The notes beneath the pieces were generated by a model. It did not search any database and had not been told where the DNA came from. It saw nothing but the letters and a program-made list of their open reading frames with translations. Source: a virus. Taken from it: a DNA stretch of 25,725 nt. Positions 3-25,500 of this stretch are shown here, in pieces. The DNA lies in the IMG/VR virus record IMGVR_UViG_3300017727_000137, positions 1 through 25,725 of that record; one strand, given 5' to 3'. The translations under genes and the position numbers were made by a program. Each line of letters starts with the position of its first letter. The stretch's first letter is position 1.

Positions 3-2978
3 CTATTTACTATAAGTCAAACAGGTGACGCAGTCTTTAGAGGAAATGGTAATTTAACAGCACTTGGAACTCTTCAAGCGTACAGCACTTTATACACAAG
101 AAGTAATTTACAAGTATTAAATGCCGCAAGCAATGGTTGGAATACTTGGGCTAGTAGATCAAATGGTAATTATAATTTAACTGTTGGAACTATCTCAAGT
201 GGAAATATCTCTAGTGGTGCTATAACAAGTAGTGGAAATATATCAGGTGTTCTTGGAACTTTTGCCGCACCAAATGCTGTTACAGGCTCTGTATTAATAA
301 CTGGCGGTAATACTAGTGTTTCAGCATTTGGTGAAATCAATTCAGAATTAAACTTTGGTTCAAATGATGGTTCTGCTACTGGAAATATTGGTGGAAGTAT
401 TAAAAGCGTTACTGAAGCTAGTAATGGTGCTTATGTTGGCATGGCTTTCTATACTGCAAGGCAATCAAGAAGCCCAGTTTTAGAAGAAGCAGTAAGAATT
501 AGTAATGATGGAAACTTAAACTTAAAAACTGGACATTTACAAATAAATGGCACAACTGTAATAGACTCCTCTCGTAACCTTACCAACATAGGAACAATCT
601 CTAGTGGTGCTATTACAAGTTCAGGAACAACTACTGTTGGCGATCTTGTAATTAATACTGTAAATACCACAATTAACACTACCCAACCTGCTATACGCAA
701 GGGCGGGGGCGGAGAAATGTTCCTTGATGCTCCTGGGCACATCATACTTAACATTGATACAAATAATAATAATACTGATAGAGTTTTTGCAGTTAGAACA
801 AATTCTACTACAAGTAATTTATTTGTAGTAAATGAATCAGGTAATCTCATTGTTGGAGGAGACGGATTCTTTGGTGGCTCAAAGTTAGAAGGCGATAACA
901 AAGAGATTCTTAGATACAATGATGCATGGCTAAGACTAAATCCTGCAAATGAATTTACTAGTGGTATATATTGTGGCACTGGAGTATTAAGAACAGATGG
1001 AACCTTTCAAATTGGTAGTAGTGGAAGTGCTTTTAATGTAACAAATGCTGGTAATGTTACAGTCGCAGGAACTATCAGTAGTGGTGCTATTACAAGTGGT
1101 GGAGTTTTAACACTTAGTTCTGTTGCTAGTGATACTCTTAATTTTTCAGGAACTACAAACAGTGATACAAGAGGTATTTCTTTTAATGGAAAGGCAGCAG
1201 TTACAGCAGATAGTGCAGATGGTTGGTTAAGATTTAATAACAATAGCGAATTTACAAATGGAATGTTTAGCCCAGGCGGAGCTTGGATTAATGGTTTTGT
1301 ACGTAGTAGTCTATTTCAAATCTCAACAACTACAGTAATAGACTCCTCTCGTAATTTAACCAATATAGGAACTATCTCTAGTGGTGCTATTACAAGCACA
1401 GGGAATATAACAACAAGTCAACACATACAACTTGGTAGTGGTTATAACTTATCTTGGGGTGGTACTTATGGAGCTAATAAACCTACTATTGCAGGAGCAG
1501 GTGGTTTTATAGCTTTCTATCCCACTGGAGCTACTGATGGTGAGGTAATAAGAATTGATGCTGATGGTATTGATATGAATAGTCATAATCTTACCGAGGT
1601 TGGAACTATCAATAGTGGTGCTATTACAGCACCAAAAATTAATGCTACAGCAACAGGAATGAGTGAATTTGCCACAAATATGTCTTCACAAGACGACTGG
1701 ATAAACTCTCCTATATCTATTCGTGAAAGAGGGTTAGCAGGAGCAGGAGATGGCGAAGATAGAGATTCTCCTAATTTAAATTTCCACTGGAGTGCTAGAG
1801 TTGCAAATTCTTTATGGATGAATGCAAGTGGTGCATTAAGCTATGGGAGTTATTCATCTACTGGAGTTCCCTCTGCTAATGGTACTTTTAGAGCAGGTGC
1901 ATATCAAGTTGGTAACACAACAGTAATTGATACCTCAAGAAATCTCGTAAACATAGGAACTGTATCTAGCGGGACACATACTATTACTGCTAATGGCAAT
2001 GCAATATTAATGCAGACTGCATCTGATCCAAGTAATTACTATGCTTACATATCTGCAAATTATAATTATGGACAAGTCTTTTCAATAAAAGCAAAAGGTG
2101 CAGGTAGCGAATATACTTTAATGGATTGGGGAGATGCAGCAGGTTTAGAGTTTCATGGTGGTGCTGCACAAAGCATAAAATTCAGTAGTCATAACTTATC
2201 AAGCATAGGAACTCTTGATACTAATGCTTTTTGGACAACATCAAGTGCAACCTCACACTGGGGTGCAGGTGGTACTGTTTATGGCACGTTAACTTGGGAT
2301 GCTGCATACGCTTCTATTTATGGTGCTTCAGGAAAAGAACTAAGACTTGGCTCAAGCGGAGGACAAGATAAGCTAACTATTAAAACAGATGGCAATGTAA
2401 CTATTAATGGTGGTGGTGCTTTGCAAATGAGCGACACTACAGTAATAGATGCCTCTCGTAACATTACGTCTAGTCAATTATATATGGGTTCTTGGACTCC
2501 AAGTGATGCAACTTCAGTTGGTAGAATTGGTAAAGTTACAGATAGAGCTGCGGGGTCAATAACAAACCAATTAGGCACTAATGCTAATTCAATATGGGAA
2601 ATTGTAGACTATGATTGGACAGTTGTTTTAGCAAAAGTTACTGATGCAGGAAATTTTACAGCTTCAGGCAACGTAACAGCTTATTCAGATGAAAGATTAA
2701 AAACTAATATACAAACATTAGACAGTAAAAAAGCATTACAAATGCGTGGCGTTAGCTTTATTAAAGATGGTGTTAAAGGTAGTGGTGTCATTGCACAAGA
2801 GATAGAAGAAATAGCACCTGAACTTGTATTAACAGCAGATGATGAAATGGGTACTAAGTCAGTAGCTTATGGAAACCTAGTAGGATATTTAATTGAAGCT
2901 ATAAAAGAACAACAAAAAGAGATAGAATATATGAAGTCAGAAATTAAACATTTACAGGAGAATAATAATGGCGATTAG
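3..2978 (+). CDS. Phage tail fibre with C-terminal S74 intramolecular chaperone (5' truncated)
   Basis: The reading frame is open from the left edge, so the start lies outside; about 991 codons are present. The body is rich in Gly, Ser, Thr and Asn, with recurring modules of the type TTVIDSSRNLTNIGTISSGAIT (near 549, 1326, 1914 and 2437, plus shorter GTISSGAIT copies), typical of trimeric beta-structured fibres. The C-terminus is a peptidase S74 chaperone domain: it begins SDERLK, with the expected nucleophile Ser at codon 2685 and the partner Lys at codon 2700, continues with GVIAQEIEEIAPELV, and ends in a coiled coil (EAIKEQQKEIEYMKSEIKHL). In this family the domain trimerises the fibre and then cuts itself off just before that Ser, which would release 97 residues. 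The role is probably host receptor binding. First ATG inside the window is 441, but homology-like repeats continue upstream of it, so 441 is not the start. Confidence 0.93.
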   Translation, partial: LFTISQTGDAVFRGNGNLTALGTLQAYSTLYTRSNLQVLNAASNGWNTWASRSNGNYNLTVGTISSGNISSGAITSSGNISGVLGTFAAPNAVTGSVLITGGNTSVSAFGEINSELNFGSNDGSATGNIGGSIKSVTEASNGAYVGMAFYTARQSRSPVLEEAVRISNDGNLNLKTGHLQINGTTVIDSSRNLTNIGTISSGAITSSGTTTVGDLVINTVNTTINTTQPAIRKGGGGEMFLDAPGHIILNIDTNNNNTDRVFAVRTNSTTSNLFVVNESGNLIVGGDGFFGGSKLEGDNKEILRYNDAWLRLNPANEFTSGIYCGTGVLRTDGTFQIGSSGSAFNVTNAGNVTVAGTISSGAITSGGVLTLSSVASDTLNFSGTTNSDTRGISFNGKAAVTADSADGWLRFNNNSEFTNGMFSPGGAWINGFVRSSLFQISTTTVIDSSRNLTNIGTISSGAITSTGNITTSQHIQLGSGYNLSWGGTYGANKPTIAGAGGFIAFYPTGATDGEVIRIDADGIDMNSHNLTEVGTINSGAITAPKINATATGMSEFATNMSSQDDWINSPISIRERGLAGAGDGEDRDSPNLNFHWSARVANSLWMNASGALSYGSYSSTGVPSANGTFRAGAYQVGNTTVIDTSRNLVNIGTVSSGTHTITANGNAILMQTASDPSNYYAYISANYNYGQVFSIKAKGAGSEYTLMDWGDAAGLEFHGGAAQSIKFSSHNLSSIGTLDTNAFWTTSSATSHWGAGGTVYGTLTWDAAYASIYGASGKELRLGSSGGQDKLTIKTDGNVTINGGGALQMSDTTVIDASRNITSSQLYMGSWTPSDATSVGRIGKVTDRAAGSITNQLGTNANSIWEIVDYDWTVVLAKVTDAGNFTASGNVTAYSDERLKTNIQTLDSKKALQMRGVSFIKDGVKGSGVIAQEIEEIAPELVLTADDEMGTKSVAYGNLVGYLIEAIKEQQKEIEYMKSEIKHLQENNNGD
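558..619 (+). repeat. Tail-fibre module repeat, copy 1
   Basis: A 62-base segment nearly identical to 1335-1396 (5 mismatches by eye). It encodes VIDSSRNLTNIGTISSGAIT. Weaker copies follow near 1921 (VIDTSRNLVNIGTVSSG) and 2443 (VIDASRNIT). The copies are in frame, and mark where fibre modules could recombine. Confidence 0.85.
1335..1396 (+). repeat. Tail-fibre module repeat, copy 2
   Basis: Second copy of the 62-base segment at 558-619, 777 bases downstream (259 codons, so in frame). Same encoded module with five base differences seen by eye, mostly silent. Confidence 0.85.
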
Positions 2979-3240
2979 TAATGTAACCACAGTTCAAAGA
3001 TGCGAAGTGTATCCTCTTATGGACTCAACTGCAGCTGCAACAGCAAATACAAAATACCCATCAGTAATGGTAGTTTATAACAACACATTAACTGGTACAG
3101 GTGGAGATGCAGGAGTTGATGGGGCTGTAAGCACAGTTGTAAAGCACTTAAATAAATTTGTAGAAGACGGCGGAGATGCTACAGATGTATCAGGCGAAGA
3201 CGCATTAGTGCAAACTATATGCGGAGCTATCTGGGCGTAA
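2968..3240 (+). CDS. Small phage protein of unknown function (90 aa)
   Basis: An AGGAG ribosome binding site at 2956-2960 lies 7 bases before the ATG, and the gene overlaps the tail-fibre stop by 11 bases, so translation is probably coupled. The protein has no signal peptide or membrane segment. It is rich in Ala, Thr, Gly and Val, with a loop-like stretch GTGGDAGVDGA and an acidic EDGGDATDVSGED segment, and ends in GAIWA. I do not recognise a family. Position right after the fibre suggests a virion or fibre-accessory role, but this is inference only. Confidence 0.75.
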   Translation: MAISNVTTVQRCEVYPLMDSTAAATANTKYPSVMVVYNNTLTGTGGDAGVDGAVSTVVKHLNKFVEDGGDATDVSGEDALVQTICGAIWA

Positions 3241-3247
3241 CTAGCTA

Positions 3248-3964
3248 ATGTCCGATATACCAACATCGGGTGCAATTAGCCTCAACCAAATGCACACGGA
3301 AGTTGGCGGATCCTCTGGGTCTACAGTTTCTATAAATGATGCGGATATTAGAGGATTAATAGGCAAGGCTTCAGGAGCCACCATGTCGTTTAGTGAGTGG
3401 TATGGGGCTTCTGCTGCATCAATAAGTACATGGGCAACGTCAGGCATATCTACCGTTCCAGATCCCTGGGGCTTTAAAAGTTTTACTTCTTCTTTCTACG
3501 CACAAGTAGGTTGTACCTATGCTCAAAAAGTAGATACTGCAAATGATAGGCTAGAGCATAGATTCTCTACTTATGACTCGGGGACCGCACAAACTTATGC
3601 ATATGGATATCAAACATATGAAGGATTAGACAGTGCTACCTTTGAATGTAAGGCTGTTTATAGTGTCAGTTCTTCAGGAACCGTGGGTAGTGTAGAAAAT
3701 CCTACTGGAGGAGCCCCCTCATCAGGAACATGGACAACTGTAAGTACATCTGCCTACACTCCTTTCTTTCAATGGAAAGTTACCGTCAACTCTGGTAGCG
3801 GAACTAGATCCTTAAGCGGGAATGCTACTTTTTATATGAGAGCTTCTTTAAGTGGTACCTACTACCCCAGCTCTACTGGTTACAATAGTGGATCTAAAAA
3901 CATATCTTTAAGTGCGACAAGAGGAACTCAAGGACCAGGCGGACCTGGCGGAGGAGGTTTATAA
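3248..3964 (+). CDS. Phage virion-type protein with Gly-rich C-terminus (238 aa)
   Basis: Begins SDIPTSGAISLNQMHTEVGG and continues through INDADIRGLIGKASGATMSFSEWYGAS, an N-terminal segment I associate with structural or tail-associated proteins of marine tailed phages (recollection, not searched). The middle (about residues 60-215) is Ser/Thr/Tyr-rich and looks like beta-sandwich material; the end is RGTQGPGGPGGGGL, a flexible glycine tail. There is no clear Shine-Dalgarno; the gene starts 7 bases after the previous stop and is probably translated by reinitiation. A small hairpin (CCGAT 3252-3256 with ATCGG 3265-3269) sits over codons 2-8. Likely a fibre-tip or capsid/tail decoration protein; exact role unknown. 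Confidence 0.75.
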   Translation: MSDIPTSGAISLNQMHTEVGGSSGSTVSINDADIRGLIGKASGATMSFSEWYGASAASISTWATSGISTVPDPWGFKSFTSSFYAQVGCTYAQKVDTANDRLEHRFSTYDSGTAQTYAYGYQTYEGLDSATFECKAVYSVSSSGTVGSVENPTGGAPSSGTWTTVSTSAYTPFFQWKVTVNSGSGTRSLSGNATFYMRASLSGTYYPSSTGYNSGSKNISLSATRGTQGPGGPGGGGL

Positions 3965-4119
3965 TGAACTTAAGCCTAGTCAATAACGTCCCATACATTA
4001 TTCAACAACATGATGAAAATACTTTTACTATTGTAGATGTTAGCACTGAGGAAGATGTAAAAACATTTACTACTCTAGAGGCGGCAGAAAATTACATGTG
4101 GACTAATTTAGTTGATTAA
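3964..4119 (+). CDS. Small protein of unknown function (51 aa)
   Basis: The ATG overlaps the previous TAA by one base (TAATG), the coupling seen at several other junctions in this window. The product starts MNLSLVNNVPYIIQQHDENT and ends YMWTNLVD. It has alternating polar/hydrophobic residues (TFTIVDVSTEEDVKTFTTLEAAENY), suggestive of a small alpha/beta fold, and no membrane segment. Not recognised. Supported by tight packing, conserved coupling style and absence of any other gene there. Confidence 0.6.
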   Translation: MNLSLVNNVPYIIQQHDENTFTIVDVSTEEDVKTFTTLEAAENYMWTNLVD

Positions 4120-4137
4120 TCAATCAAATGATATAAT
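4112..4137 (+). promoter_or_regulatory. Candidate promoter/operator before the lysis-curli block
   Basis: A perfect 12-base palindrome TTGATTAATCAA (4112-4123) straddles the stop of the 51-aa gene, and a consensus-like TATAAT follows at 4132-4137. TTGATT could be a -35 element, but the spacer is only 14 bases against a usual 16-18, so a sigma70 promoter is uncertain. It lies in one of only two gaps over 10 bases in the window, which makes a regulatory role plausible. Confidence 0.35.
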
Positions 4138-4150
4138 AAATGCTTCACAC

Positions 4151-4159
4151 AGGAGGTGA
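4151..4159 (+). promoter_or_regulatory. Strong Shine-Dalgarno AGGAGGTGA
   Basis: This is a near-perfect complement of the 16S rRNA 3' end, placed 6 bases (after AGGAGG) before the ATG at 4163. It is one of the strongest ribosome binding sites in the window and fixes the start of the 52-aa membrane protein. Confidence 0.8.
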
Positions 4160-4162
4160 AAT

Positions 4163-4321
4163 ATGGATTTTTTATTAGATATAATAACAACAGTTACTTA
4201 CATTGTTACTGGTGCGTCTTTAATAGCTGCTTGGACTCCGTCTGAAAAGGATGATAAGTGGATAGGAAAGATGTTTTCCTACATAGATTTACTTGCACTT
4301 AATTTTAAAGTCAAGAAATAA
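4163..4321 (+). CDS. Small holin-like single-TM protein (52 aa)
   Basis: The start is set by AGGAGGTGA at 4151-4159. One hydrophobic segment (about residues 3-24, LLDIITTVTYIVTGASLIAAW) is followed by a charged stretch TPSEKDDKWIGK and a second weakly hydrophobic part (FSYIDLLALNF) ending in KVKK. Small proteins with this TM plus 'TPxxKDD..IGK....D.LALN' pattern occur in many tailed phages near lysis genes; that is from memory. Four bases separate it from the next TM protein. It could be a holin, an antiholin or another small inner-membrane protein. Confidence 0.7.
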   Translation: MDFLLDIITTVTYIVTGASLIAAWTPSEKDDKWIGKMFSYIDLLALNFKVKK

Positions 4322-4325
4322 GTAA

Positions 4326-4673
4326 ATGGATGCGGTTGCGATAATAACCGAATTAGGTTTTCCTGTTGCAGCTGCATTCGGACTAGGTTGGTTTATATAC
4401 AAATTAATAATGCGTATTGTAGACGGCATGGAAACTAAACTCGATGTTGTTGATCAAAAGGTAGCAGAACAAATATCAGCAATAGAAGAGCGTTTAGGAT
4501 CTAAACTTGATTCTCAACACGGTATTCTGGTAGCATTAATTGACAGAGTGCGAAGTTTAGACAACGAGATTATAAGGCAAGATACTCTTATAAAAACTAT
4601 TCTCGGAGTACCACAGTTAATAGATAGCAATAAGATTGCTAAGGCGGATAGAGATGACCAAAGAAGAGATTAA
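4326..4673 (+). CDS. Holin-like protein: N-terminal TM plus coiled coil (115 aa)
   Basis: One transmembrane segment (about residues 12-31, FPVAAAFGLGWFIYKLIMRI) is followed by an amphipathic coiled coil (about 35-95) and a basic tail KADRDDQRRD. This TM-then-coil arrangement with a charged C-terminus resembles class III-type or BhlA-like phage holins and small lysis-region proteins of marine phages. The Shine-Dalgarno is weak; translation may be coupled to the 52-aa gene 4 bases upstream. The end overlaps the CsgF-like gene by 20 bases. Function as a holin is inference from topology and neighbours. Confidence 0.7.
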   Translation: MDAVAIITELGFPVAAAFGLGWFIYKLIMRIVDGMETKLDVVDQKVAEQISAIEERLGSKLDSQHGILVALIDRVRSLDNEIIRQDTLIKTILGVPQLIDSNKIAKADRDDQRRD

Positions 4674-5151
4674 AGAAGCCAAAGAAAAAGATTTAATAAT
4701 TAAAATTGTATCTTTGATAGGCATAGTTTTATTTGTATGTATATTTGTACAGAATGTAAAATCAGATGAAATGGTACATAAATTTAAGTCGCCTTCTTTT
4801 TCGGGGATAGGAACATCAGCCCATTATTTAACTATAGAAAATCAACAATATTCTAGGCGTATGACCGTGAAGGCAGAGCTGAAAGCATTGCAAGATGAAA
4901 TAGAAAGAGACAAAGAAAATACAACACTTGCAAGATTTATAAGAAACTTAGAGTCTAGAATATATGCACAGTTATCTAGACAGCTTGTAGAGAATCTATT
5001 TGGAGAGACTCCCAGCGATAGTGGTGTTTTAACTTTAGAAGGAAACACTATAGAGTATAATGTTGTAGACGGAATAATAACTTTAAACATTACAGATTCA
5101 GATGGTAATACGACAACTATATCTCTTCCTATCGGGAATTTTGCTTTCTAG
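4654..5151 (+). CDS. csgF: CsgF-like curli secretion accessory protein (165 aa)
   Basis: CsgF binds the mouth of the CsgG outer-membrane pore and helps present curli subunits. The match is by eye: after the hydrophobic export signal, DEMVHKFKSPSFSGIG...YLTIENQQYSRR lines up with the E. coli CsgF mature N-terminus (MTFQFRNPNFGG...LLNSAQAQNSY), the part that inserts in CsgG. FIRNLESRIYAQLSRQLVENLFG and a C-terminal beta part (GNTIEYNVVDGIITLNITDSDGNTTTI) also follow the family order. At 165 aa it is longer than E. coli CsgF (138), partly because a charged 15-residue stretch precedes the hydrophobic segment (about 16-33). Start chosen at 4654 (AAGGCGG at 4641-4647, 6 bases away) rather than the in-frame ATG 4636. 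It overlaps the upstream gene by 20 and the CsgG-like gene by 50 bases. Confidence 0.88.
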   Translation: MTKEEIKEAKEKDLIIKIVSLIGIVLFVCIFVQNVKSDEMVHKFKSPSFSGIGTSAHYLTIENQQYSRRMTVKAELKALQDEIERDKENTTLARFIRNLESRIYAQLSRQLVENLFGETPSDSGVLTLEGNTIEYNVVDGIITLNITDSDGNTTTISLPIGNFAF

Positions 5152-5968
5152 CTGTGCTTTATTATTTGACCCAATAGAAAACAACATACCCCCGTTACAA
5201 AGAATAGAGAAGCCAGAGATTGGATCTCTTCTTGTATATGAGCTTGCATCAATAAAAAATGCAAATAAGGTAAAGCCAGTTATAGCTATATACGCAGGAT
5301 CTTTTACAGACCAAACAGGGCAAAGAAGAAGTAATAGCAACTATGCAACATTCTCAACAGCAGTAACACAATCCCCAGACGCATATCTTATAAGAGCACT
5401 TAAGCATGCTGGAAGTAATAATGACGGCTTTTTTGAAGTTGTTGAACGTGTTGGATTGGACAACGTAACAAAAGAACGTCAAATAATAAGAAGTACACGA
5501 AAAGAATTTAAAGAAAATACACAATTACAGCCATTAATGTTTGCAGGTTTGCTAATGCAAGGTGGTGTGATATCTTATGAAAGTAACCTAAAAAGCGGTG
5601 GTGCAGGTGCTAGATATCTTGGAATAGGAATGTCTAGACAATATAAGCAAGACACAGTGACTATATCATTAAGAACTGTATCTGTAAGTACGGGAAAGGT
5701 TTTGCTTGAAGTGTTGGTAACAAAGACAATACTTAGTGCATCTATTGATAGTGATGTTTTTAGATTCATAACTGATGCAACTGAGCTGGTAGAAATTGAG
5801 GGCGGTTTAGTTAGGAATGAGTCTACAAACATAGCATTACAAACAGCTATAGAAACCGCAGTATTACAAACAATTAAGGAAGGTGCAGAAAAAGGATATT
5901 GGAGCATTTATGAAAACATTAAAACTATTAACTGCGATGATGATTGTGTTTCCGCTATACGCGGCTGA
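5102..5968 (+). CDS. csgG: CsgG-like curli outer-membrane secretion lipoprotein (288 aa)
   Basis: CsgG is a lipoprotein that forms a nine-subunit barrel in the outer membrane and passes unfolded curlin. This protein has a lipoprotein signal with lipobox LSSC (Cys18, followed by Ala, compatible with outer-membrane sorting). It then follows E. coli CsgG nearly block by block: FTDQTGQ, TFSTAVTQSPDAYLIRAL, ERVGLDNVTKERQIIR, LMQGGVISYESNLKSGGAGARYLGIG, ISLRTVSVSTGKVL, VTKTILS, VFRFI, and IALQTAIETAVLQTIKEGAEKGYW. Phe84 aligns with the E. coli pore-constriction Phe56; the Asn next to it is Thr here and the constriction Tyr is shifted. Length is 288 against 277. No ribosome site is visible; start ATG lies inside csgF (50-base overlap), and the 3' end overlaps the curlin-like gene by 59 bases. 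Confidence 0.95.
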   Translation: MVIRQLYLFLSGILLSSCALLFDPIENNIPPLQRIEKPEIGSLLVYELASIKNANKVKPVIAIYAGSFTDQTGQRRSNSNYATFSTAVTQSPDAYLIRALKHAGSNNDGFFEVVERVGLDNVTKERQIIRSTRKEFKENTQLQPLMFAGLLMQGGVISYESNLKSGGAGARYLGIGMSRQYKQDTVTISLRTVSVSTGKVLLEVLVTKTILSASIDSDVFRFITDATELVEIEGGLVRNESTNIALQTAIETAVLQTIKEGAEKGYWSIYENIKTINCDDDCVSAIRG

Positions 5969-6620
5969 CAACGAAATATATGTTGACCAATCAGGAGCTA
6001 CAGCTAACATAGATTTAGAACAACTAGGATCATCTAATATTATTGGAGGTCTTAATTCAATAGCAGGAACCCTCACACCACTAGATCTTGATGGACTTAA
6101 TTTAACACTTGATATTAATCAAATAGGTAATACTAATAAATTTCTAGGTGATATATATGGCGATAACGTAACGGGGTTTTTTGAGTTTGACGGCGATAGC
6201 AACACCTTCACAATTCAAGCAGATCCAACAGATACTTACGGTATAAGTGGTTCAGATTATAATGTTGATGTAACTGGAAATTCTAATACATTTACCTTAG
6301 ATACAGGAGTAAGTGCACTCAGTGAAAATCTAGATCTTGATTGGATCATCAATGGCGACAGCAACACATTTGATTTTGATATAAACTATGATGGTGCCAC
6401 TAACTATGTAGATGTTGATGGCGACAGCAATACAGTTAATTTTACAGGAAGTGGTTATGCAGGAGGATATTTCTACCTTGATCAAACGGGAAACAGTAGA
6501 ACCTTCAACATCATACAGTCTTCAACTCTTGCTTCTGATTGGTTACAGATTAACTCTACTGGTTCTAATGGCACTATTTGTGTCGTTCAGAACGATGGCG
6601 GAACCTCCACAGGCTGTTGA
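5910..6620 (+). CDS. Exported curlin-like repeat protein, candidate CsgG substrate (236 aa)
   Basis: Start 5910 is preferred over the in-frame ATG 5883 because GGAG (5901-5904) precedes it by 5 bases and it gives a clean Sec signal peptide, MKTLKLLTAMMIVFPLYA, cut near AYA/A-DN. The mature part begins NEIYVDQSGATANIDLEQLG, close to the curlin repeat theme (Asn, Gln-x-Gly spacing). It then carries repeated strand-turn-strand motifs: DINQIGNTNKF, FDGDSNTFTI, VTGNSNTFTL, INGDSNTFDF, DGDSNTVNF, DQTGNSRTFNI, spaced 22-28 residues. Canonical CsgA repeats (Sx5QxGxGNxAx3Q) are not strict here, so it is a divergent CsgA/CsgB-type candidate. Two cysteines (224 and the last residue, 236) are unusual for a curlin. 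Overlaps csgG by 59 bases and the FecR gene by 164. Confidence 0.78.
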   Translation: MKTLKLLTAMMIVFPLYAADNEIYVDQSGATANIDLEQLGSSNIIGGLNSIAGTLTPLDLDGLNLTLDINQIGNTNKFLGDIYGDNVTGFFEFDGDSNTFTIQADPTDTYGISGSDYNVDVTGNSNTFTLDTGVSALSENLDLDWIINGDSNTFDFDINYDGATNYVDVDGDSNTVNFTGSGYAGGYFYLDQTGNSRTFNIIQSSTLASDWLQINSTGSNGTICVVQNDGGTSTGC

Positions 6621-7650
6621 TATAGGAAATATATCTGAGCTCACGGGCTCAGCACAGGTTATAAGAGACAAGCCATATCAGGCAAAACAAAGATTTGATA
6701 TACAGCAGAATGATGAAGCTATTACTACTAATGGTCGCATGGCTATTACCTTCCTTGATGAGTCTCAGGTAAAGTTAACAGAGAACTCAACTCTAACTAT
6801 AGACGAATATATATTTGACCCCAACCCCAGTAAATCAAAAATGGCTATTACGTTTGGACTTGGTACTGCTAGGTTTATTACTGGCGGATTAAACAAAATA
6901 GACAAGAACAATATAGATCTTAAAACGCCAACAGCTAACATAGCAATTCGCGGTACTGACTTTACGGTTACTGTAGATGAGATAGGCAGATCATTATTAA
7001 TCCTTTTGCCAAATGAACTGGGTGTTGCAAGCGGGGAAATAATAGTCACCACGGCAATAGGTTCAGTAACTCTTAATAAACCATACCAGGCAACAACAGT
7101 TGATGTCTTTGAAAAATCTCCAAGCCCACCAGTGATACTTGACCTAACTCTAGACCTGATAGACAACATGCTAATAGTAACGCCACCAAAGCAAGAACAA
7201 GTAATAGAAGACTCTATTCAGACAAACAAAAAAAGCATTCTAGATTTTGATGACCTGGACATAGATTATCTGGAAGAAGACTTTTTAGATTCTGATAAAG
7301 ATCTAGAGTTTACAGAGCTAGATATAAACTATTTAGATGTAAATTTCTTAGAAGACTTATTAGATGTAATAGATGCACTACAAGAAATCAATCAGGAAGA
7401 TCAGCTAGCCCAAGACGCAACATCTATCAATATAGTTGGAACTAAATTTGGTCAAGATCTAAACACACAAATAACATCTTTTGTAACAGGAGAGGTGTTG
7501 ACCATTATGCGTAGCGTAAGCGATACTGCTAGGTTAGATATAGACTCCTCTCAGAGCTATACTATTATCTTTTTACAAGACGGCACTTCTAATATTATTA
7601 AAGTAAACGGCGGAACAGGTAGCACTATTAAAATCACTCAAACTAATTAA
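6457..7650 (+). CDS. Exported FecR-domain protein (397 aa)
   Basis: The FecR-type beta domain (about residues 64-172) is clear: GSAQVIRDK, TTNGRMAITFLDESQVKL, NSTLTIDEYIFDP, GTARFITGGLNKI and the hallmark LKTPTANIAIRGTDF. A C-terminal extension has an acidic block (about 260-310) with repeated DIDYLEEDFL / ELDINYLDVNFLEDLL, and a small beta domain to the end. Start is uncertain. ATG 6595 would begin MAEPPQ and lose an obvious signal peptide (LTLLVLMALFVSFRTMA, cut before EP). ATG 6457 has AGGA at 6446-6449, 7 bases away, and is used here; it gives a long n-region. TTG 6478 behind AGGAGG (6461-6466) is another candidate. The signal is encoded inside the curlin-like gene in another frame. The stop overlaps the cyclase start (TAATG). 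Confidence 0.8.
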   Translation: MQEDISTLIKRETVEPSTSYSLQLLLLIGYRLTLLVLMALFVSFRTMAEPPQAVDIGNISELTGSAQVIRDKPYQAKQRFDIQQNDEAITTNGRMAITFLDESQVKLTENSTLTIDEYIFDPNPSKSKMAITFGLGTARFITGGLNKIDKNNIDLKTPTANIAIRGTDFTVTVDEIGRSLLILLPNELGVASGEIIVTTAIGSVTLNKPYQATTVDVFEKSPSPPVILDLTLDLIDNMLIVTPPKQEQVIEDSIQTNKKSILDFDDLDIDYLEEDFLDSDKDLEFTELDINYLDVNFLEDLLDVIDALQEINQEDQLAQDATSINIVGTKFGQDLNTQITSFVTGEVLTIMRSVSDTARLDIDSSQSYTIIFLQDGTSNIIKVNGGTGSTIKITQTN

Positions 7651-9398
7651 TGAAACGTATACTATTCACAATACTTATAATACTAGGAATGCCATTGGTA
7701 TTTAAAAGCACTCCTACAGAAATACTTAAATTAAAAATATACGATGCTTTAGTCAAAGAACAGGATCCATCTGGTTATTTTACAGTCATAAATCTTGATG
7801 AAGATTTTATAAACCAAGAGGGCGGATATCCAGTTCCAAGATCCAGGCTTGCACAAATAAATAAAGATATATTAGATGCTGGTGCTTTGGGGGTGGGTTG
7901 GGTTATTGCATTTCCTCACCCAGATCGACTCGGGGGAGATAAAGAATTTGCAGAGTCTTTACAACAAGGTACATCAATATTGGCAATGTTTGAAGCCCCA
8001 AATCAAATATACCCAAAAACAGTTGGAACTGTAATGCTGGGTACAGGTAAAGGTGGTATGTTATCCAAAGGTGTAGTTCAAAATACTAACAACCTTAGAA
8101 ATTATATACAACAGGGTATTGCAACTGCACCTACCGATATAGACAATCTTGTCAGAAGAATACCTCTATTATTAAAAACACCTGACGGATATGTTCCCGC
8201 GTTTGGCACGGAGGTTTTAAAAGCACTCGTTGGTGCAGATACTTATGTCATCAAAAGCAATGAGCTTGGTATAGAAGAGATAAGGGTGAAAGGATTAGAT
8301 CCTGTTAAAACAGATTCACTGGGAAGAAAGTGGATTAGTTGGATAAGAACACCAGAAACCACATTGGATGAAATGAATGTTCTTAATAAGTTTGTTTTTA
8401 TTGGAGTTACTGCTCCAGGAATCTCACCACAAATAGCAACCCCAGTTGGATTATTAGAACCACATAAAATTCAAGCTGCATTATCTGAGTCAATTCTTGT
8501 AAAAAACTCTCCAAGGGTTCCAGATTTTGCTTTGGCGTTGGAAATTGCAATTTTTGGAATTTTCGTGTCTCTGACATGGCTTGTAATTAATTATCTTGGT
8601 GTTACTAAGGGCATATGTATGGCAGTAATTTTGCTGTTAACCACGGGGCTCTCAGGAGTTATTAGCATTCAAAAAGGGTTTTTGATAGATTTTTCGTGGA
8701 CTTTTGTGTCTCAGTTTATAACTGGAGCTATTGCGTTCTATTTGAACTTTAGAAAGCAGCATAAATTGCGTCAACAGATAAAAAAACAATTTGAACATTA
8801 TCTAGATCCAAGACAAGTTAAACAATTACAAAAAAATCCAGACCTCCTGAAACTCGGGGGAGAAAAAAAAGAAGCAACATTTTTATTTACAGATGTTAGA
8901 GGCTTTACAAATTTAAGTGAGAAGCTAGAACCAGAACAAGTAACAGAAATTATGAACAAGGTTTTAACAGTTCAAGTGGAATGCGTTCAGGCTCATGGTG
9001 GTATGGTAGATAAATTTATTGGCGATGCATGTATGGCTATTTTTTCAGCACCACTATATTTAGATCAGCATGAGAAGAGGGCGGTAGCTTGTGCACAAGA
9101 TATGAGAACAGCAATAAGACAGTTGCAAAAAGAATTACCAGAATCAATAGCAATTGGTATTGGAGTAAATACTGGATATGCAGTTATTGGAAACATGGGA
9201 TCACAAACAAGATTTGATTATTCTGCTATTGGTGACTGTGTAAATACAGCTGCTAGATTAGAGTCAGCAACCAAGGAGGCGGGCGTAGATATATTGATTG
9301 GCGAATCAACTGCAAAAAAAGTCAATAATAAGTTAAAATTGTTAGAACCAATAAAAGTTAAAGGAAAAGAAAAGCCTTTAATCATATATACAGTTTAA
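7650..9398 (+). CDS. CHASE2 sensor-adenylate cyclase, class III (582 aa)
   Basis: An integral inner-membrane enzyme predicted to turn ATP into cAMP. Order: N-terminal TM (about 4-19), periplasmic CHASE2-type sensor (about 25-285, with VINLDEDFINQEGGYPVPRSRLAQI and a C-terminal KFVFIGVTA), three TMs (about 293-315, 320-341, 346-366), linker helix, then the class III cyclase domain (about 405-582). Catalytic residues are all visible: metal-binding Asp415 (LFTDVRGFT) and Asp459 (DKFIGDACMAIF), adenine-binding Lys455, Ser525 at the second base-contact position (FDYSAIGD; Thr or Ser there is typical of class IIIb), and transition-state Asn532 and Arg536 (VNTAARLES). It should therefore be active. 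Coupled by TAATG to the FecR gene; FecR-CHASE2-cyclase pairs occur on bacterial chromosomes, so FecR may feed the sensor. Confidence 0.94.
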   Translation: MKRILFTILIILGMPLVFKSTPTEILKLKIYDALVKEQDPSGYFTVINLDEDFINQEGGYPVPRSRLAQINKDILDAGALGVGWVIAFPHPDRLGGDKEFAESLQQGTSILAMFEAPNQIYPKTVGTVMLGTGKGGMLSKGVVQNTNNLRNYIQQGIATAPTDIDNLVRRIPLLLKTPDGYVPAFGTEVLKALVGADTYVIKSNELGIEEIRVKGLDPVKTDSLGRKWISWIRTPETTLDEMNVLNKFVFIGVTAPGISPQIATPVGLLEPHKIQAALSESILVKNSPRVPDFALALEIAIFGIFVSLTWLVINYLGVTKGICMAVILLLTTGLSGVISIQKGFLIDFSWTFVSQFITGAIAFYLNFRKQHKLRQQIKKQFEHYLDPRQVKQLQKNPDLLKLGGEKKEATFLFTDVRGFTNLSEKLEPEQVTEIMNKVLTVQVECVQAHGGMVDKFIGDACMAIFSAPLYLDQHEKRAVACAQDMRTAIRQLQKELPESIAIGIGVNTGYAVIGNMGSQTRFDYSAIGDCVNTAARLESATKEAGVDILIGESTAKKVNNKLKLLEPIKVKGKEKPLIIYTV

Positions 9399-9406
9399 GA
9401 GGAATT

Positions 9407-9889
9407 ATGAAAGCATTATTAAAAAACATAGTAGGTGCAGTCGCCCCAACCTTGGGTTCTGCATTGGGCGGACCAATGGGAGGCATGGCAGCTAATATGA
9501 TATCTGAAGTACTAGGCGTTCCCAACACACCTAAGTCAATACAAAAAGCCATACAAGAAGCAACACCAGAACAGATGCTTGAGCTAAAAAAAGCAGAGCA
9601 GGCATTTGAAGTTCAGATGAGAGAGCTAGATGTAGATGTCTTTAGGCTAGAGGTTGCTGATGGACAAGATGCCAGGAACAAGTTTAGTAAAGATTGGACA
9701 GCAAGAATTATGGGAATAGCAGTTGTTGGCGGATTCATGGGTTACATCTTTCTTGTTACCTTGCAGCCACCAGAGCAAAACAGCGAAGCTTTAATAAATT
9801 TAGTTTTAGGATATTTAGGTGGTTTGGCTAGTGCTGTGATATCTTTTTATTTTGGTGCTTCTAACTCATCAAACGATAAACAGGATTAA
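9407..9889 (+). CDS. 3TM-type phage holin (160 aa)
   Basis: GAGGA at 9399-9403 precedes the ATG; 8 bases follow the cyclase stop. An Ala/Gly-rich amphipathic N-terminus (about 7-34) leads to a helical linker (TPEQMLELKKAEQAFEVQ...DVFRLEVADGQDARNKF). Then comes the signature KDWTARIMG, two TMs (about 101-119 and 128-149) and the end SFYFGASNSS. This matches the '3TM holin' family of phages and gene transfer agents, which permeabilise the inner membrane at lysis. It is the third holin-type protein in the window and closes the right side of the curli-type cassette. Confidence 0.85.
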   Translation: MKALLKNIVGAVAPTLGSALGGPMGGMAANMISEVLGVPNTPKSIQKAIQEATPEQMLELKKAEQAFEVQMRELDVDVFRLEVADGQDARNKFSKDWTARIMGIAVVGGFMGYIFLVTLQPPEQNSEALINLVLGYLGGLASAVISFYFGASNSSNDKQD

Positions 9890-19549: not shown

Positions 19550-22500
19550 GTGGCAGATACATTTGACTTCAACAACCCTCTCGGACTTGACGAGGAACTA
19601 GAAAAAGAAAACTCTTTATTGGGCTCACCTGATATTGAAAAACCGCAAGAAGATAAGCCCTCAGAGTTTAGCTTTGAAGATCCCTTAAGACAAGAATACC
19701 TAAGAAAAACAGCAACGGGTCCAGTTCCTTCTGACTTTGATGGAAGTCCAATAGGTTCTGCTGTAAGTTTTATAAACAAGGTTTTTGTAAAACCTTTCGT
19801 AACTCTTTCAGAAGAAGCAGAAGAAAGATATCCAGAATCACCCATTGAAAATTTGCTTTATGCAGGAGATATAACAAAAAGTCTTGCATTTAAAGAAAGA
19901 ACCGAGCAGGCTCTTTCTGCCGCAGGTCTGGTAAATGAAGAAGAAATAGCAAAGTACAAAAAAGGCGAAGCTCAATTTGGAGTTGGGGATTATGGTGCGG
20001 GGGCATATGCAGAATTTTACAACGCGAAACTGCAAATAAGAGCCAAAGATAGATATAAAAATGATGCAAAGTACAAAAAATCTGTAGATGATAATCTTGC
20101 AATAGCACAAAAAGAGTCTATTAAAGAGTTTGCAAAGATTGATAAGGCTATACAAAAAAAGAGGTCTGATAACAACCTTGGACCCTACGGGAGCTCTGTA
20201 TCTAGTGCAGTAGAAAGTATTGCTGTTATAGGTACTGGAATGGCTGTGAATTATCTTTCTGGTGGCAGAGCAACACCAGCTATAACAGGAGGAACGCTTA
20301 CATACTTTGGTTTGCAAACAGCGGCAGCATCTTATTCTGAGGCAAGACAGCAAGGAATACCTCACGAACAAGCCTTTGGTTATGCAAGCATAAATGGAAT
20401 ATTAGAGGCTGGAACGGAAATGGTTCCAGTTATGAGATTCCTTTCTCCGAGGAGTAAAGGAACAATAAAAGATATATTAAAATTTGACTTAGCGACAGTA
20501 GCGGCTGATGTTACCCTGGAAAATGTTAACAGCTTATTACAAGAACATAACTCTGTCTGGTTTGATTTGGAGTCAGAACTAAAAACCGCATACGAAAACA
20601 AAAACGACCCGCTATATGAAGGAAGGTCTGTATCAGAGGTCTTGGTTGATATTGCTGGGCACACAACTCTTTCATCTATCATTGCGGCTGGATCTATATC
20701 TGCGTTTAGAAGCACTGGGGGTATTATATACAGTGATGAGGTTAAAACGCTTATAAGGAATCAAAAAGATAATCCCGAGCTTGAGTTGTTTATTGAAAAC
20801 TTTTCAAATAATGTTAACAACTTACAATTAAACTACAACGCAATTGATAGTGCATCAAGAATACTTTTAGATCCAAACACCAACGGCAAGGGATGGACCG
20901 CGGATGAGGTAATTGCATTAGAATACTTTAATCAACCTTTTATAGATTTCAGAAAGCCTTTAGTGGTTGGAGAAGAGGGAGAAGTTTCTCAGCCAGATGA
21001 ATATGTAGAATCTCTTCAGCTTAAGTTTCCAGCAAAAAAACAAGAAGAGTTTAATTTTAATGACCCTCTTTCAGGAGTTTTTAAAAAGAAAGTTGCGGGA
21101 CCACAAACTTCTGAAATAGATTTAAATCTATCTCCAATAATAACTCAAAGGCTTGACGCAAATATAAATCTTCTTGAGACAGACCTGCCCCTCAACCCAA
21201 CTTTAAATATAGACCAGATAAGAAATGATACATATGATCAAAAAGAATTAGATCTAACAAAAAATTTAATCATAGATACAAGAACCTTTGAAGAAAAATT
21301 ATTAGAGGACCCATCTGGAGAACAAAAGTATTATAGGTTTAGAGACTTAAATAACGAAGAGGGTATAAACGCTTCTAAAGGAATTATAGATTTAACCAAG
21401 TCAGGAATGCCACTTGATATATTTACAGATCTTGATTTTGTTGGCGTTCATACCAAAGACAATAGATATAAAACATTTGACGCCTCATATGGAATCTACA
21501 TGCCGACACTCAGGGGCGTATCCTTCTCTCCTATATCTGGAATATCAGAGTTAAAATTTACAAACAAGTTAGGATCTAAGTTAAATTTAAGATCAACCAT
21601 AGCCCATGAAATGGGACATCATATAGACTTTACAATTGCAAGATCTCCTAGCGATAATCTTAATATACTTCAACCAGCAACAGCAGGGTCTCCTTTATTT
21701 AATTTACCAAACTTTAACTACAACGAAGGCACGGGCACTCTAGATATTGCGGACAACTCTGGCGGGGAGATAATGAAAGAGGCACTCAGAATGTTCAATG
21801 AGGGTCAGAAGGGCAGATACTATGACGGCAACATGCTTAGATATCCATTTAATGAAATGATTGGAATGAATGGAAGTATGAACCCAGCTCAAGAAAGAAT
21901 GATTAAAGCAGAGGTGTTTGGTCAGCTTCATGAATTATATTATACTAATAGATCACTGCTAGAAGAGAAGGCTCCAACAGCACTAAAATTAATAGAGGAA
22001 CTAAACGATGCAATTTCAATTGACGGAACTACAAAGAAAGCTGAGAGAGTACAACTTGCTTTTCAAACACCCAGTGCCCAGCGAAGTATTGAGGTTTCAG
22101 ACAGAAGAACAGACGTTGAAGATGATAGATCAGGCGATATCGTCTCAGAAACCAGTGCAAGACTGGTTGGACAGGAAGAATCTACAGACAGGGACGGTGT
22201 TCGACCTGAAATATCAGAACTAAAACAAGTAGGTACAACTGGTCAGGTTGTTGGAGCTCCAGAGGGAATGGACTCCAAACAAAAAGTAGGTGCACTCAGG
22301 CGAAAAATGAGAGGTCTAGCCAAGGAAGGCGTTTCTCAAAGATTCTGGTATGAGCAAAGTGGTCAAGCACTACTAGATGTAACAAACAACAACAAAGAAA
22401 ACGCAGACAAACTTGCACAGGTTATTGCAATAACATCACCAGGAACCCCAGTAGAGGCAAACTTCAACTATGCACTACAGGCTTACTATCAATATATTGC

Positions 22501-25500
22501 TGGAGAAACAGTAAAGACTGGAAGATTCCCTAAAGCAATGAGCGAAAAGATAATTAATGTCTTTGAGGGCAAGGACTGGGGGGGAAGAAAAACCAACGAA
22601 TTTTATAACAATATTATGAGGGTTATAGATCCGTCCAGGACACAGGGAGTAACCGTAGATGTTTGGATGGTCAGGGCATTTAACTTTGATACTGACGCAC
22701 CAACGCCAGCACAATACTCATTCGTAGAAAATGAAATACAGAAAATATCTAATCAACTTGGTTGGGAACCCCAACAGGTACAGGCTGCTATATGGACGGC
22801 TCAAAAGGCTAGAGATGAAGGGACCGATGTAAATGCTGCTGGGTTTAATTATGCCAATGCACTAGAAAAATCATTAGGTCAAATAAGCTGGGAGTCTATA
22901 CCAGGAAGAACATCAGGGCATATGCCTGAGATGTTTAATGCACCATACGAGCAGTTGCAGGAATACCATGTTGCAATATCGAAAGCTTTACAAGATGAAA
23001 GCGGATCAGACCTTGTTGCTAATACTCTGGGGATACTATCGCCTGGAATAGTCGAGGCACCAGGATTCTTTGAGGGTAAAGTCAGCCCAGGATCACAAAC
23101 ACAAATAGCTTTAACAAAGATATACAAGGCAGATCCAAAAACAGAATTTGCAAAACTAGAACCAGCGTCAGAGGACCTAGCAAAAGCATACTCGGCAGCC
23201 CTTGGAATACTTTTAAAGCAGGACGGTATTGGGTATCACAAACCATTCTTCCAAAAGGGAATAGCTAAGACTAAGTTAAATGGAATGGATATTAATATAG
23301 GAAGACCATTAACTGAAAACGAAACACAGATGCTTGCAGAGGCAATGGAAAAAGAGTCAGGAATCAAGGACTATAACCCTATAGGGACAGCAAATGGTGC
23401 AAGGCTAATTAACTTTTCATACCTTGACATACCAAACTTAAAATTTAAAAAGATTGTAAACAATGTTTTAAATGGTGTACAATTTGAAAATAACGAAGAT
23501 GTTGATCTTGGACAATTTGCGTCTAGCGAAGGATATCTTTCTAACAACTGGAGTAAAAATAAAAATGGCGAAAGTTACATTGAGAGTATTAGAGGAATCT
23601 CACCCGATCTTCAGGGAAGGGTTGAGAATATCGTCAGGGACCTCAAACAGAGAATTGATGAAGTCGACCAAACCTTCTCAGAAAAATACGGATGGAAAAG
23701 AGATGAATCAATCAACTCAAACTACACAGGACAAGCAGACCTAACACCCCCAACCCTATCTAAAAAGGTTCTACCAGAAGAAGAATCTCAATTCGATATT
23801 TACGAGACAATGACATCCAACGATGCGTCTCAACTATTTCAAACATTCTCAACTTTTCAAGAACAGGCTGTAGATAAACTAGACAGGCTAAAAGCTTTTG
23901 AAGAAAAGCTAGGAAAATTAGTTAGCCCAAAAGAAATGAGGAGACTGTCTGTTGTAAGAAAAACAGATGTGTATCATGGAAAGGTTAAGTACGGAATGGA
24001 CAAGGCTGTGGAGGCAACCACAGAAATATCTGAGTTCTTAAATAGCGTCAATATATCAAGAGAAGAGTTCAACGATTTTCTTAAAAACCTGCACGCCCCA
24101 GAAAGAAATAAAAAGATCAATGAAAAATACAACAAAGAAATACCCGAGCTTGAGGCTGAACTTCTTGCTGAAACGGAAAAAAGCAAAAGAACTGTCCTTA
24201 AAGGAAAGATCACTAAAAGAAAAAATGTATTAGCAAAATACCAAGACAGCGGATCTGGAATAAAAACAGACAAAGCGATTGAGACTCTCGAGTCTATTGG
24301 AATTAAGTTTGATGAAAAGACAAACAAGGCAAGTGCAAATAATGAAAAAGGTAAGAACCTCTTAGATGCATTCAAGCTACTTGAATCATATCAACAGGAC
24401 ACATTAAATATATACAGAGATCAAGATCTTGTGGATGAGCAAACCCTGGAGGACTGGGATAGCTCATATAGATACTATGTGCCGCTAGTTGGATTCTCTG
24501 TTGAAACTATTGAAGACAGCTCACCAAGAGCAACTGGCGGCGGAATAAGTGTGTTTGGAAGAGAGGTAATGGAGGCTAAGGGAAGGACCTCTGAGTCAGG
24601 ACCACCTTTAGAACAGGCTGTTATAAGAAGGCAGTCGGCTGTGGTTCGGGGAGAAAAGAACTTCATAGACAAATCCTTGGCGGAGCTTGTTAATACATTC
24701 CCAGATAAGAAGCTATGGCAGGTCAGGGGTGTAAAAAGAAACGAAAGACCACACGAGTGGGATGGCAAAGAATCTAAAATAGGATTTAAGGAAAATGGCA
24801 AACAAAAGTTTATTGTTATAAAAGACGAGAGACTAGCAAAGGGATTAGATGCTTGGGGAAATAACAGTATGCATTGGTCAATTGGTGTAATGAGAGGACT
24901 CACAGGAACACTTTCCAGCCTATATACATCACTCGCTCCAGAATTTATTGTTGGAAACTTCTTTAGGGATTATCAAACTGGGTACTTTAATTTATTAAAA
25001 GAACAAGAGATAGAGGGAGGAAGAGCACAGAACCTAGATCTTGCAAAGGCGTTCAAGCCCAACAATATAGCTAAGACAATGAGGCAGCTTAAGGATGGCT
25101 ATGTAACTAAAAGCTTACAAGAAAAAGATCCAGAAACATTTGCACTCTTTGATGCGTTCCAGAAGTTTGGTGGTCAGACTGGTTATGTGAATGCCAAAGA
25201 CATAGATCAAATAGCAAAAGCCATGGAAGAGCTTTCTTTAGTTCACTCTGGAAAGGGAAAGGTAAACGCCAAGAAGGTTTATAACTCAACATTTAAAATG
25301 GTTGAAAATGTAAACAATGCTATTGAAAACACTGCAAGGTTTGCTGTCTTTAAAGAATACATTAACGCCGCTGGCGGTACAAAGAAAGCATCCAAACAAG
25401 ACTTCGATGATGCCGCAGTTCTGGCAAAGAACTTAACTATAAACTTTAACAGATCTGGAAAACTTGGACCTGTAGTTAACGCATTTTATATTTTTGCAAA

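Follow-up and report, generated by a model that had tools for sequence, protein, structure and literature searches.

The viral record IMGVR_UViG_3300017727_000137 of IMG/VR (positions 1-25,725, a 25,725-base stretch referred to here as the window) carries an overlapping run of five genes on the + strand, comprising csgF, csgG, a curlin-like gene, a FecR-domain gene and a CHASE2-adenylate cyclase gene, that forms a unit extending to position 9398. This module is flanked by a tail-fibre gene (441-2978) on one side and by internal-virion and tail genes from 9893 on the other. Its features, with the evidence by which each was recognized, are as follows.

4654-5151, + strand: csgF, encoding a predicted CsgG partner (PF10614; pairwise alignment with Escherichia coli)
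5102-5968, + strand: csgG, encoding a predicted outer-membrane lipoprotein pore (PF03783; E. coli CsgG structures)
5913-6620, + strand: divergent curlin, a predicted exported fibre subunit (family profile; PF07012 matches within the family; all-beta model)
6529-7650, + strand: FecR-domain protein with a signal-like helix, FecR domain, disordered linker and C-terminal beta domain (PF04773; structural model; Foldseek)
7450-7647, + strand: C-terminal beta domain of the FecR protein with a curlin-type last strand, IKITQTN, containing Q371 (model strands; alignment; tail pattern)
7650-9398, + strand: CHASE2 sensor and class III adenylate cyclase, predicted to reside in the inner membrane (PF05226; PF00211; conserved residues)

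We regard the gene overlaps as real because the start of the next gene sits within the preceding one, as does a signal-like stretch in the case of CsgG, curlin and FecR (identified by hydropathy, and for curlin by eye). The TTG start of the FecR gene at 6529 was chosen by us from its signal-like stretch. A preliminary description of the window had placed overlapping CsgF-, CsgG- and curlin-like genes at 4654-6620, and both the coordinates and the identities were confirmed with Pfam hidden Markov models (HMMs), for curlin at the family level; the two profiles that it proposed for CsgG and CsgF score well above their cut-offs.

CsgF matches PF10614 with an E value of 2e-17 (64 bits against a cut-off of 25.8), and its N-terminal FKSPSFSG pairs with FRNPNFGG of the E. 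coli protein in a pairwise alignment. CsgG matches PF03783 (E=2.1e-47, 161.6 bits against a cut-off of 20.8) and the solved structures of E. coli CsgG (E=1.6e-41), making it a likely outer-membrane lipoprotein pore. The CsgG motifs had been described as near-complete. The lipobox (LSSC) is recognized by eye, and F84, the Phe of an FSTAV segment, aligns with the E. coli Phe; the preceding Asn is replaced by Thr, and the Tyr is out of register. These three residues line the pore of E. coli CsgG. All six window-type rows of alignment A5 conserve F84; HTVC008M and Melnitz have Leu instead. An unverified wastewater fragment labeled “Salmonella phage” (L084, OR851715.1, 1499 bases) also encodes a CsgG, with 42.6% identity to that of the window.

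None of the ten proteins encoded in 441-9889 gave a Pfam match to CsgE, CsgC or CsgD, which are dispensable for alphaproteobacterial-type modules according to PMC9599517. The “minimal curli system” of the preliminary description overlooked the FecR and CHASE2-cyclase genes directly downstream. The lack of a CsgE match is also compatible with the suggestion that CsgG without CsgE is an uptake pore admitting nutrients or cofactors (PMC7029224; PMC9599517). We consider this very improbable, as it leaves curlin and CsgF unexplained, the FecR protein here adjoins a CHASE2 cyclase, and the ten proteins scanned include no FecA- or FecI-type match.

Although the window's curlin-like protein gave no PF07012 match of its own in a Pfam search, 14 of 36 members of its family match this profile at E<=0.1 (best 2.5e-8), the Melnitz gene in the same position scores 26.0 bits against a cut-off of 20.7, and hhalign pairs the profile of the family with one of bacterial curlins at 98.3% probability (E=2e-14; the bacterial profile was built from CsgA and CsgB of E. 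coli and six alphaproteobacterial operon curlins, and repeats inflate such scores somewhat). Because of these matches the predicted product of 5913-6620 is called a divergent curlin, and the curlin repeats proposed in the preliminary description are thereby found at the level of the family, not in the window sequence by itself. The family alignment (A9) consists of the window protein and 35 of 47 relatives, those left out being mainly second copies and two isolate records. An AlphaFold model of the protein is all beta, with a predicted local distance difference test score (pLDDT) of 84.7 and a predicted template modeling score (pTM) of 0.80. Foldseek returned no PDB relative of the model at E<=0.001; VIA-align superimposes it on the CsgA fibril 8enq with a Z score of 11.4 (root-mean-square deviation 8.8 over 109 residues), several unrelated beta solenoids ranking above. 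The protein would be exported and would form a surface amyloid fibre.

The FecR protein matches PF04773 (E=3.2e-10), and its model (overall pLDDT 69.9, pTM 0.48) comprises a signal-like helix at residues 2-21, FecR-domain strands at 31-191, a low-confidence stretch at about 215-306 and C-terminal beta strands at 308-371, the last block having a pLDDT of about 69-80. The model resembles solved FecR-type signaling domains in Foldseek (4m0h_B, E=6.2e-5; PupR 6ovk_R, E=5.2e-4), and an export signal is seen in both the model helix and the hydropathy profile. The C-terminal domain ends in a constant tail, which we describe as hydrophobic-x-hydrophobic-x-Gln followed by at most four residues. Leaving aside L001, which is part of the window itself, and open reading frames (ORFs) that are open at a contig end or shorter than 80 aa, this pattern is found in 153 of 153 closed module FecR ORFs (68/68 distinct tails); of the 1101 distinct tails that other ORFs in these loci contribute, 14 have it. 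None of the tails of CsgF, CsgG, the cyclase, the upstream membrane protein or two virion genes has it, nor do any of 17 closed bacterial FecR proteins encoded near CHASE2. The Gln of the last strand (Q371 in the window) is the sole invariant residue of the domain, being present in 35 of 35 rows of alignment A10 (the window and 34 of 40 nonredundant relatives; L065, L080, L098, L118, L145 and L161 were left out). E. coli CsgB has the comparable C-terminus MAIRVTQR, and similar ends occur on several curlins of bacterial operons. The FecR tail may accordingly be read, modestly, as a docking strand shared with curlins, with no kinship of the domains implied. Where no gene separates FecR from the cyclase, 53 of the 56 distinct tails of FecR carry a QxG motif ahead of the last strand; loci with an intervening gene show it in three of 11 (counts uncorrected for kinship), a distribution that fits FecR assuming the role of a second curlin.

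The cyclase combines a CHASE2 sensor (PF05226, E=3.9e-26) with a catalytic domain (PF00211, E=1.1e-21), and hydropathy indicates an N-terminal cluster of membrane segments and a central cluster at 295-341. D415, K455, D459 and R536 are present in all 113 distinct relatives, N532 in 111 and D523 in 103. The residue set of a class III adenylate cyclase, namely the metal Asp pair, the Lys/Asp for adenine, the Asn and the Arg, is complete in the window protein. We predict that it is an inner-membrane enzyme producing cyclic AMP (cAMP) under the control of a CHASE2 sensor.

A FecR-domain gene beside CHASE2 is a bacterial arrangement, found in 21 of the 40 alphaproteobacterial CHASE2 loci that we fetched and in the cyclase clusters of Campylobacterota (PMC9239204). 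In the window, too, a FecR-domain protein with an export signal adjoins a CHASE2 protein, to which it may signal. Unlike the window, none of the 40 bacterial stretches contains csgF or csgG, and none of their 17 closed FecR proteins has a curlin-type end. Two Pelagibacter family genomes encode a CHASE2 protein with FecR nearby (L266 in G102; L267 in G301) and have no PF00211 match in the genome; CHASE2 must therefore feed another output there, and the CHASE2 proteins of the bacterial loci are not necessarily all cyclases.

The association of the five genes is constant. In two viral scans that share contigs (e.g., L002 and L090), and whose counts are consequently of loci and ORFs and not of independent events, curlin, FecR and cyclase were present in 77 of 77 kept CsgG-bait loci whose downstream sequence reached 2.6 kb or more (80 kept from the 129 that encode a relative), and CsgF, CsgG, curlin and FecR in 29 of 29 cyclase-bait loci with at least 5.2 kb upstream (187 loci, 80 kept). 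The search of viral contigs for the same gene order that had been proposed thus succeeded. A chimera of phage and bacterial DNA, considered in the preliminary description, and contamination are both rejected as the source of the module, as many separate contigs have the same run. The run is never split in testable viral loci, and the best explanation is that csgF, csgG, curlin, fecR and cyclase act as one unit. Ratios of nonsynonymous to synonymous polymorphism (pN/pS) are 0.03-0.41 for the module genes in seven pairwise comparisons, similar to the adjoining virion gene; synonymous sites are near-saturated and the values rough, and they suggest as a rough estimate that all module genes are under purifying selection.

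This constancy bears on the proposal, made for Melnitz (PMC9004378), that CsgG is a gated pore aiding virion release through lysis timing or breach of the outer membrane. Genes for small membrane proteins do precede the module, as this would lead one to expect, but lysis has no need for curlin, FecR or cyclase, yet these accompany CsgG in every one of the 77 loci, and the CsgG pore sits in the outer membrane. We regard a lysis function as improbable.

CsgF was matched in seven of 385 genomes of one class, among which we sought and did not find a bacterial operon uniting csg, FecR and cyclase genes. Five of the seven (G070, G099, G187, G308 and G352) gave csg operons lacking FecR and cyclase neighbors; the four contigs of G002 either are of phage type or end too soon for a decision, and G183, below the cut-off, was not used. 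The C-terminal domain of FecR was found in 385 genomes of one class only on two phage-type contigs of G002 and as one weak match in G266 (E=0.0013). The E. coli csgBAC/csgDEFG and alphaproteobacterial csgF-csgG-curlin operons resemble the window in having CsgF, CsgG and curlin with signal peptides. The alphaproteobacterial operons differ in having no FecR or cyclase gene within about 9 kb (5/5 examined), and E. coli has CsgE, CsgC and CsgD, unlike the module as scanned. Genome-contig matches L085-L089 show phage gene order and are taken as phage contigs in metagenome-assembled genomes (MAGs). On one of them, the Maricaulis MAG contig L086, the module lacks the cyclase and the next phage gene directly follows FecR. 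MAG contigs of G002 and G004 with the phage-type module (L087, L089 and L183) are probably phage contamination, which can mislead family counts.

Genes of the csg type in phages have been described before (PMC7029224; PMC9004378; PMC9599517), as the preliminary description had suggested for marine phages, the last of these papers reporting FecR and cyclase genes as well, in an identical order. The module is therefore already published for pelagimyophages, HTVC023P-type podophages and the methylophage Melnitz, and modules of this kind were known before. New here are its presence in another, probably temperate lineage, the CHASE2 sensor and the curlin-ended FecR protein. The main texts of the three papers do not name CHASE2, and none of the titles listed by searches of the open-access literature concerns a phage FecR-CHASE2 pair or a FecR protein with a curlin-like end. 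The pelagiphage type VIII secretion module (Wittmers et al. 2022, PMC9599517) has the order CsgF-CsgG-curlin-FecR-(curlin)-cyclase, like the window. HTVC008M (NC_020484), whose CsgG is 43.0% identical to the window's, carries an additional curlin gene that separates FecR from the cyclase, whereas the window type lacks it and belongs to a separate, integrase-bearing lineage. Melnitz (MZ577097), unlike the window phage a T4-like myophage of OM43, likewise has the module, with FecR, two curlin-repeat proteins and cyclase in its GenBank annotation and a CsgG 45.0% identical to the window's over 75%; PMC9004378 states that it has no csgA/csgB.

The lineage of the window is best seen in a 54.8-kb record (G390), which encodes an identical CsgG and has 11 of 17 sampled 40-mers in common with the window. 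Its terminase (TerL) is nearest to that of Roseobacter phage CRP-7 (35.6%). Neither the window nor the near-identical G390, records that may be incomplete, yielded the PolA (PF00476) of HTVC023P-type phages, and on this basis we do not assign the window phage to the HTVC023P-type podophages. The module occurs in other phage types, including G398 (HTVC023P-like PolA, 48.9%), G401 (HTVC104P-like terminase, 62.9%), G396 (a further terminase type, 49.3% to an uncultured phage), HTVC008M and Melnitz. A tyrosine integrase (PF00589) is encoded in six of 18 records (G389, G390, G391, G393, G394 and G395; in G390 at G390:C1:43879-44298, L244:647-1444), and the other 12, including the window, which is a fragment, are without one. 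Because these six are precisely the longer records sharing the virion genes that come after the module in the window (6/6), the window lineage is probably temperate. As to the host, 12 loci contain no tRNA, and no Rfam match exceeded its gathering score; a type I hammerhead ribozyme is matched in G390 with a score under the cut-off (L243:8354-8403, + strand; 27.1 against 34 bits, E=0.016). G390 also encodes a DUF5675 protein (L243:7134-7613, - strand; PF18925, E=1.2e-28), possibly a lysis gene, close to a short ORF that adjoins the terminase gene.

Our overall reading, favored tentatively and at somewhat less than even confidence, is that the module is a five-gene fibre unit in which FecR reports the state of the fibre or its subunit to the cyclase. 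During infection, or perhaps in lysogeny, CsgF and the lipoprotein CsgG would together make a pore in the outer membrane, through which curlin would quite probably be exported to build surface fibres. FecR would be exported to the periplasm or surface, where its C-terminal domain, by way of the curlin-type strand, may dock on, nucleate or cap curlin, and its FecR domain may touch the periplasmic CHASE2 sensor. That the state of the fibre or subunit would in this way set cAMP output via FecR is possible and held only tentatively. Computation supports the identities of the genes, their invariable association, the export signals, the catalytic residues of the cyclase and the FecR tail, whereas the formation of fibres, the docking of FecR on curlin, its contact with CHASE2 and the action of cAMP are inferred. 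In its fullest form, which is unlikely, the module would be a self-contained fibre-sensing device, whose hybrid FecR joins the fibre or unsecreted curlin and signals to the CHASE2 cyclase in a phage-borne outside-to-inside cAMP pathway, and which in the integrase-bearing lineage could also act during lysogeny as a form of lysogenic conversion.

Several findings weigh against FecR as a fibre sensor. The tail pattern was defined post hoc, once tails had been inspected, and among the curlins of the module itself just 14 of 72 distinct tails have it. The FecR C-terminal domain matches curlin profiles weakly (22% for phage curlins and 0.7% for bacterial curlins) and the curlin repeat is matched by none of its 35 members at a threshold as lax as E<=10, for which reasons we keep the docking-strand reading modest; in the comparison with a CsgB-like nucleator, likewise, the end pattern is common to both and the profile match is weak or absent. 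The csg operons of G070, G099, G187, G308 and G352 have no FecR or cyclase gene nearby, and a report on the FecR-domain protein SMc02177 (PMC5498481) weighs against a sensor role. The cyclic nucleotide-binding domain PF00027 is found in none of the 18 phage records and in two of 60 genomes of the family of Pelagibacter MAG G004 (58 are without one). Class III cyclases are equally sparse in that family (2/60), one being on G004's phage-type contig. If the host is SAR11, the phage would bring in the messenger. Finally, infection with Melnitz produced no clumping in culture (PMC9004378).

The last observation also tells against plain fibre display, near to the published reading (PMC7029224; PMC9599517), in which a coat on infected cells, or their clumping, serves to catch siblings or exclude rival phages and FecR and the cyclase merely regulate fibre production. 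The pore, its partner and curlin are all present, but display leaves the curlin-like FecR end and the choice of a CHASE2 sensor unexplained, and the phages have no CsgD or CRP-type target (PF00027 in none of the 18 records). We consider display possible, if rather doubtful. For the curli modules of marine phages, a FecR protein with a curlin-type end beside a CHASE2 sensor offers a concrete candidate link from fibre to second messenger, recasting FecR as an envelope signaling partner instead of an iron regulator. In an integrase-bearing lineage such a module might act outside lytic growth, altering host sticking and sensing.

Two small genes lie immediately upstream of the module.

4163-4321, + strand: 52-aa ORF with one hydrophobic segment, its position upstream of the module conserved in part of the loci (sequence; hydropathy; gene order lists)
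4326-4673, + strand: 115-aa membrane/coiled-coil protein preceding csgF (Pfam and PHROG profile searches)

The latter matches phrog_18771, a family of unknown function (E=1.8e-16), and no Pfam family above the cut-off. Of the setting between holin-type and virion genes given in the preliminary description, the virion genes stand, and the holin label corresponds to a single weak match of this protein (phrog_1296, E=0.015). PMC9599517 places a histidine kinase upstream of the module; no kinase was matched in the window at 4326-4670 (E<=1), in HTVC008M (L082:4182-4460) or in Melnitz (L083:4410-4754), and a kinase is unsupported at these three ORFs, whichever ORF that paper has in mind. Farther upstream, a 238-aa ORF (3248-3964) matches phrog_26746 over its first 66 residues (E=1.4e-19) and nothing over the remainder, and looks like a common N-terminal module joined to a body that varies. 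At the other end of the window, an open ORF of at least 2058 aa (19550-25723) runs off the end of the record.

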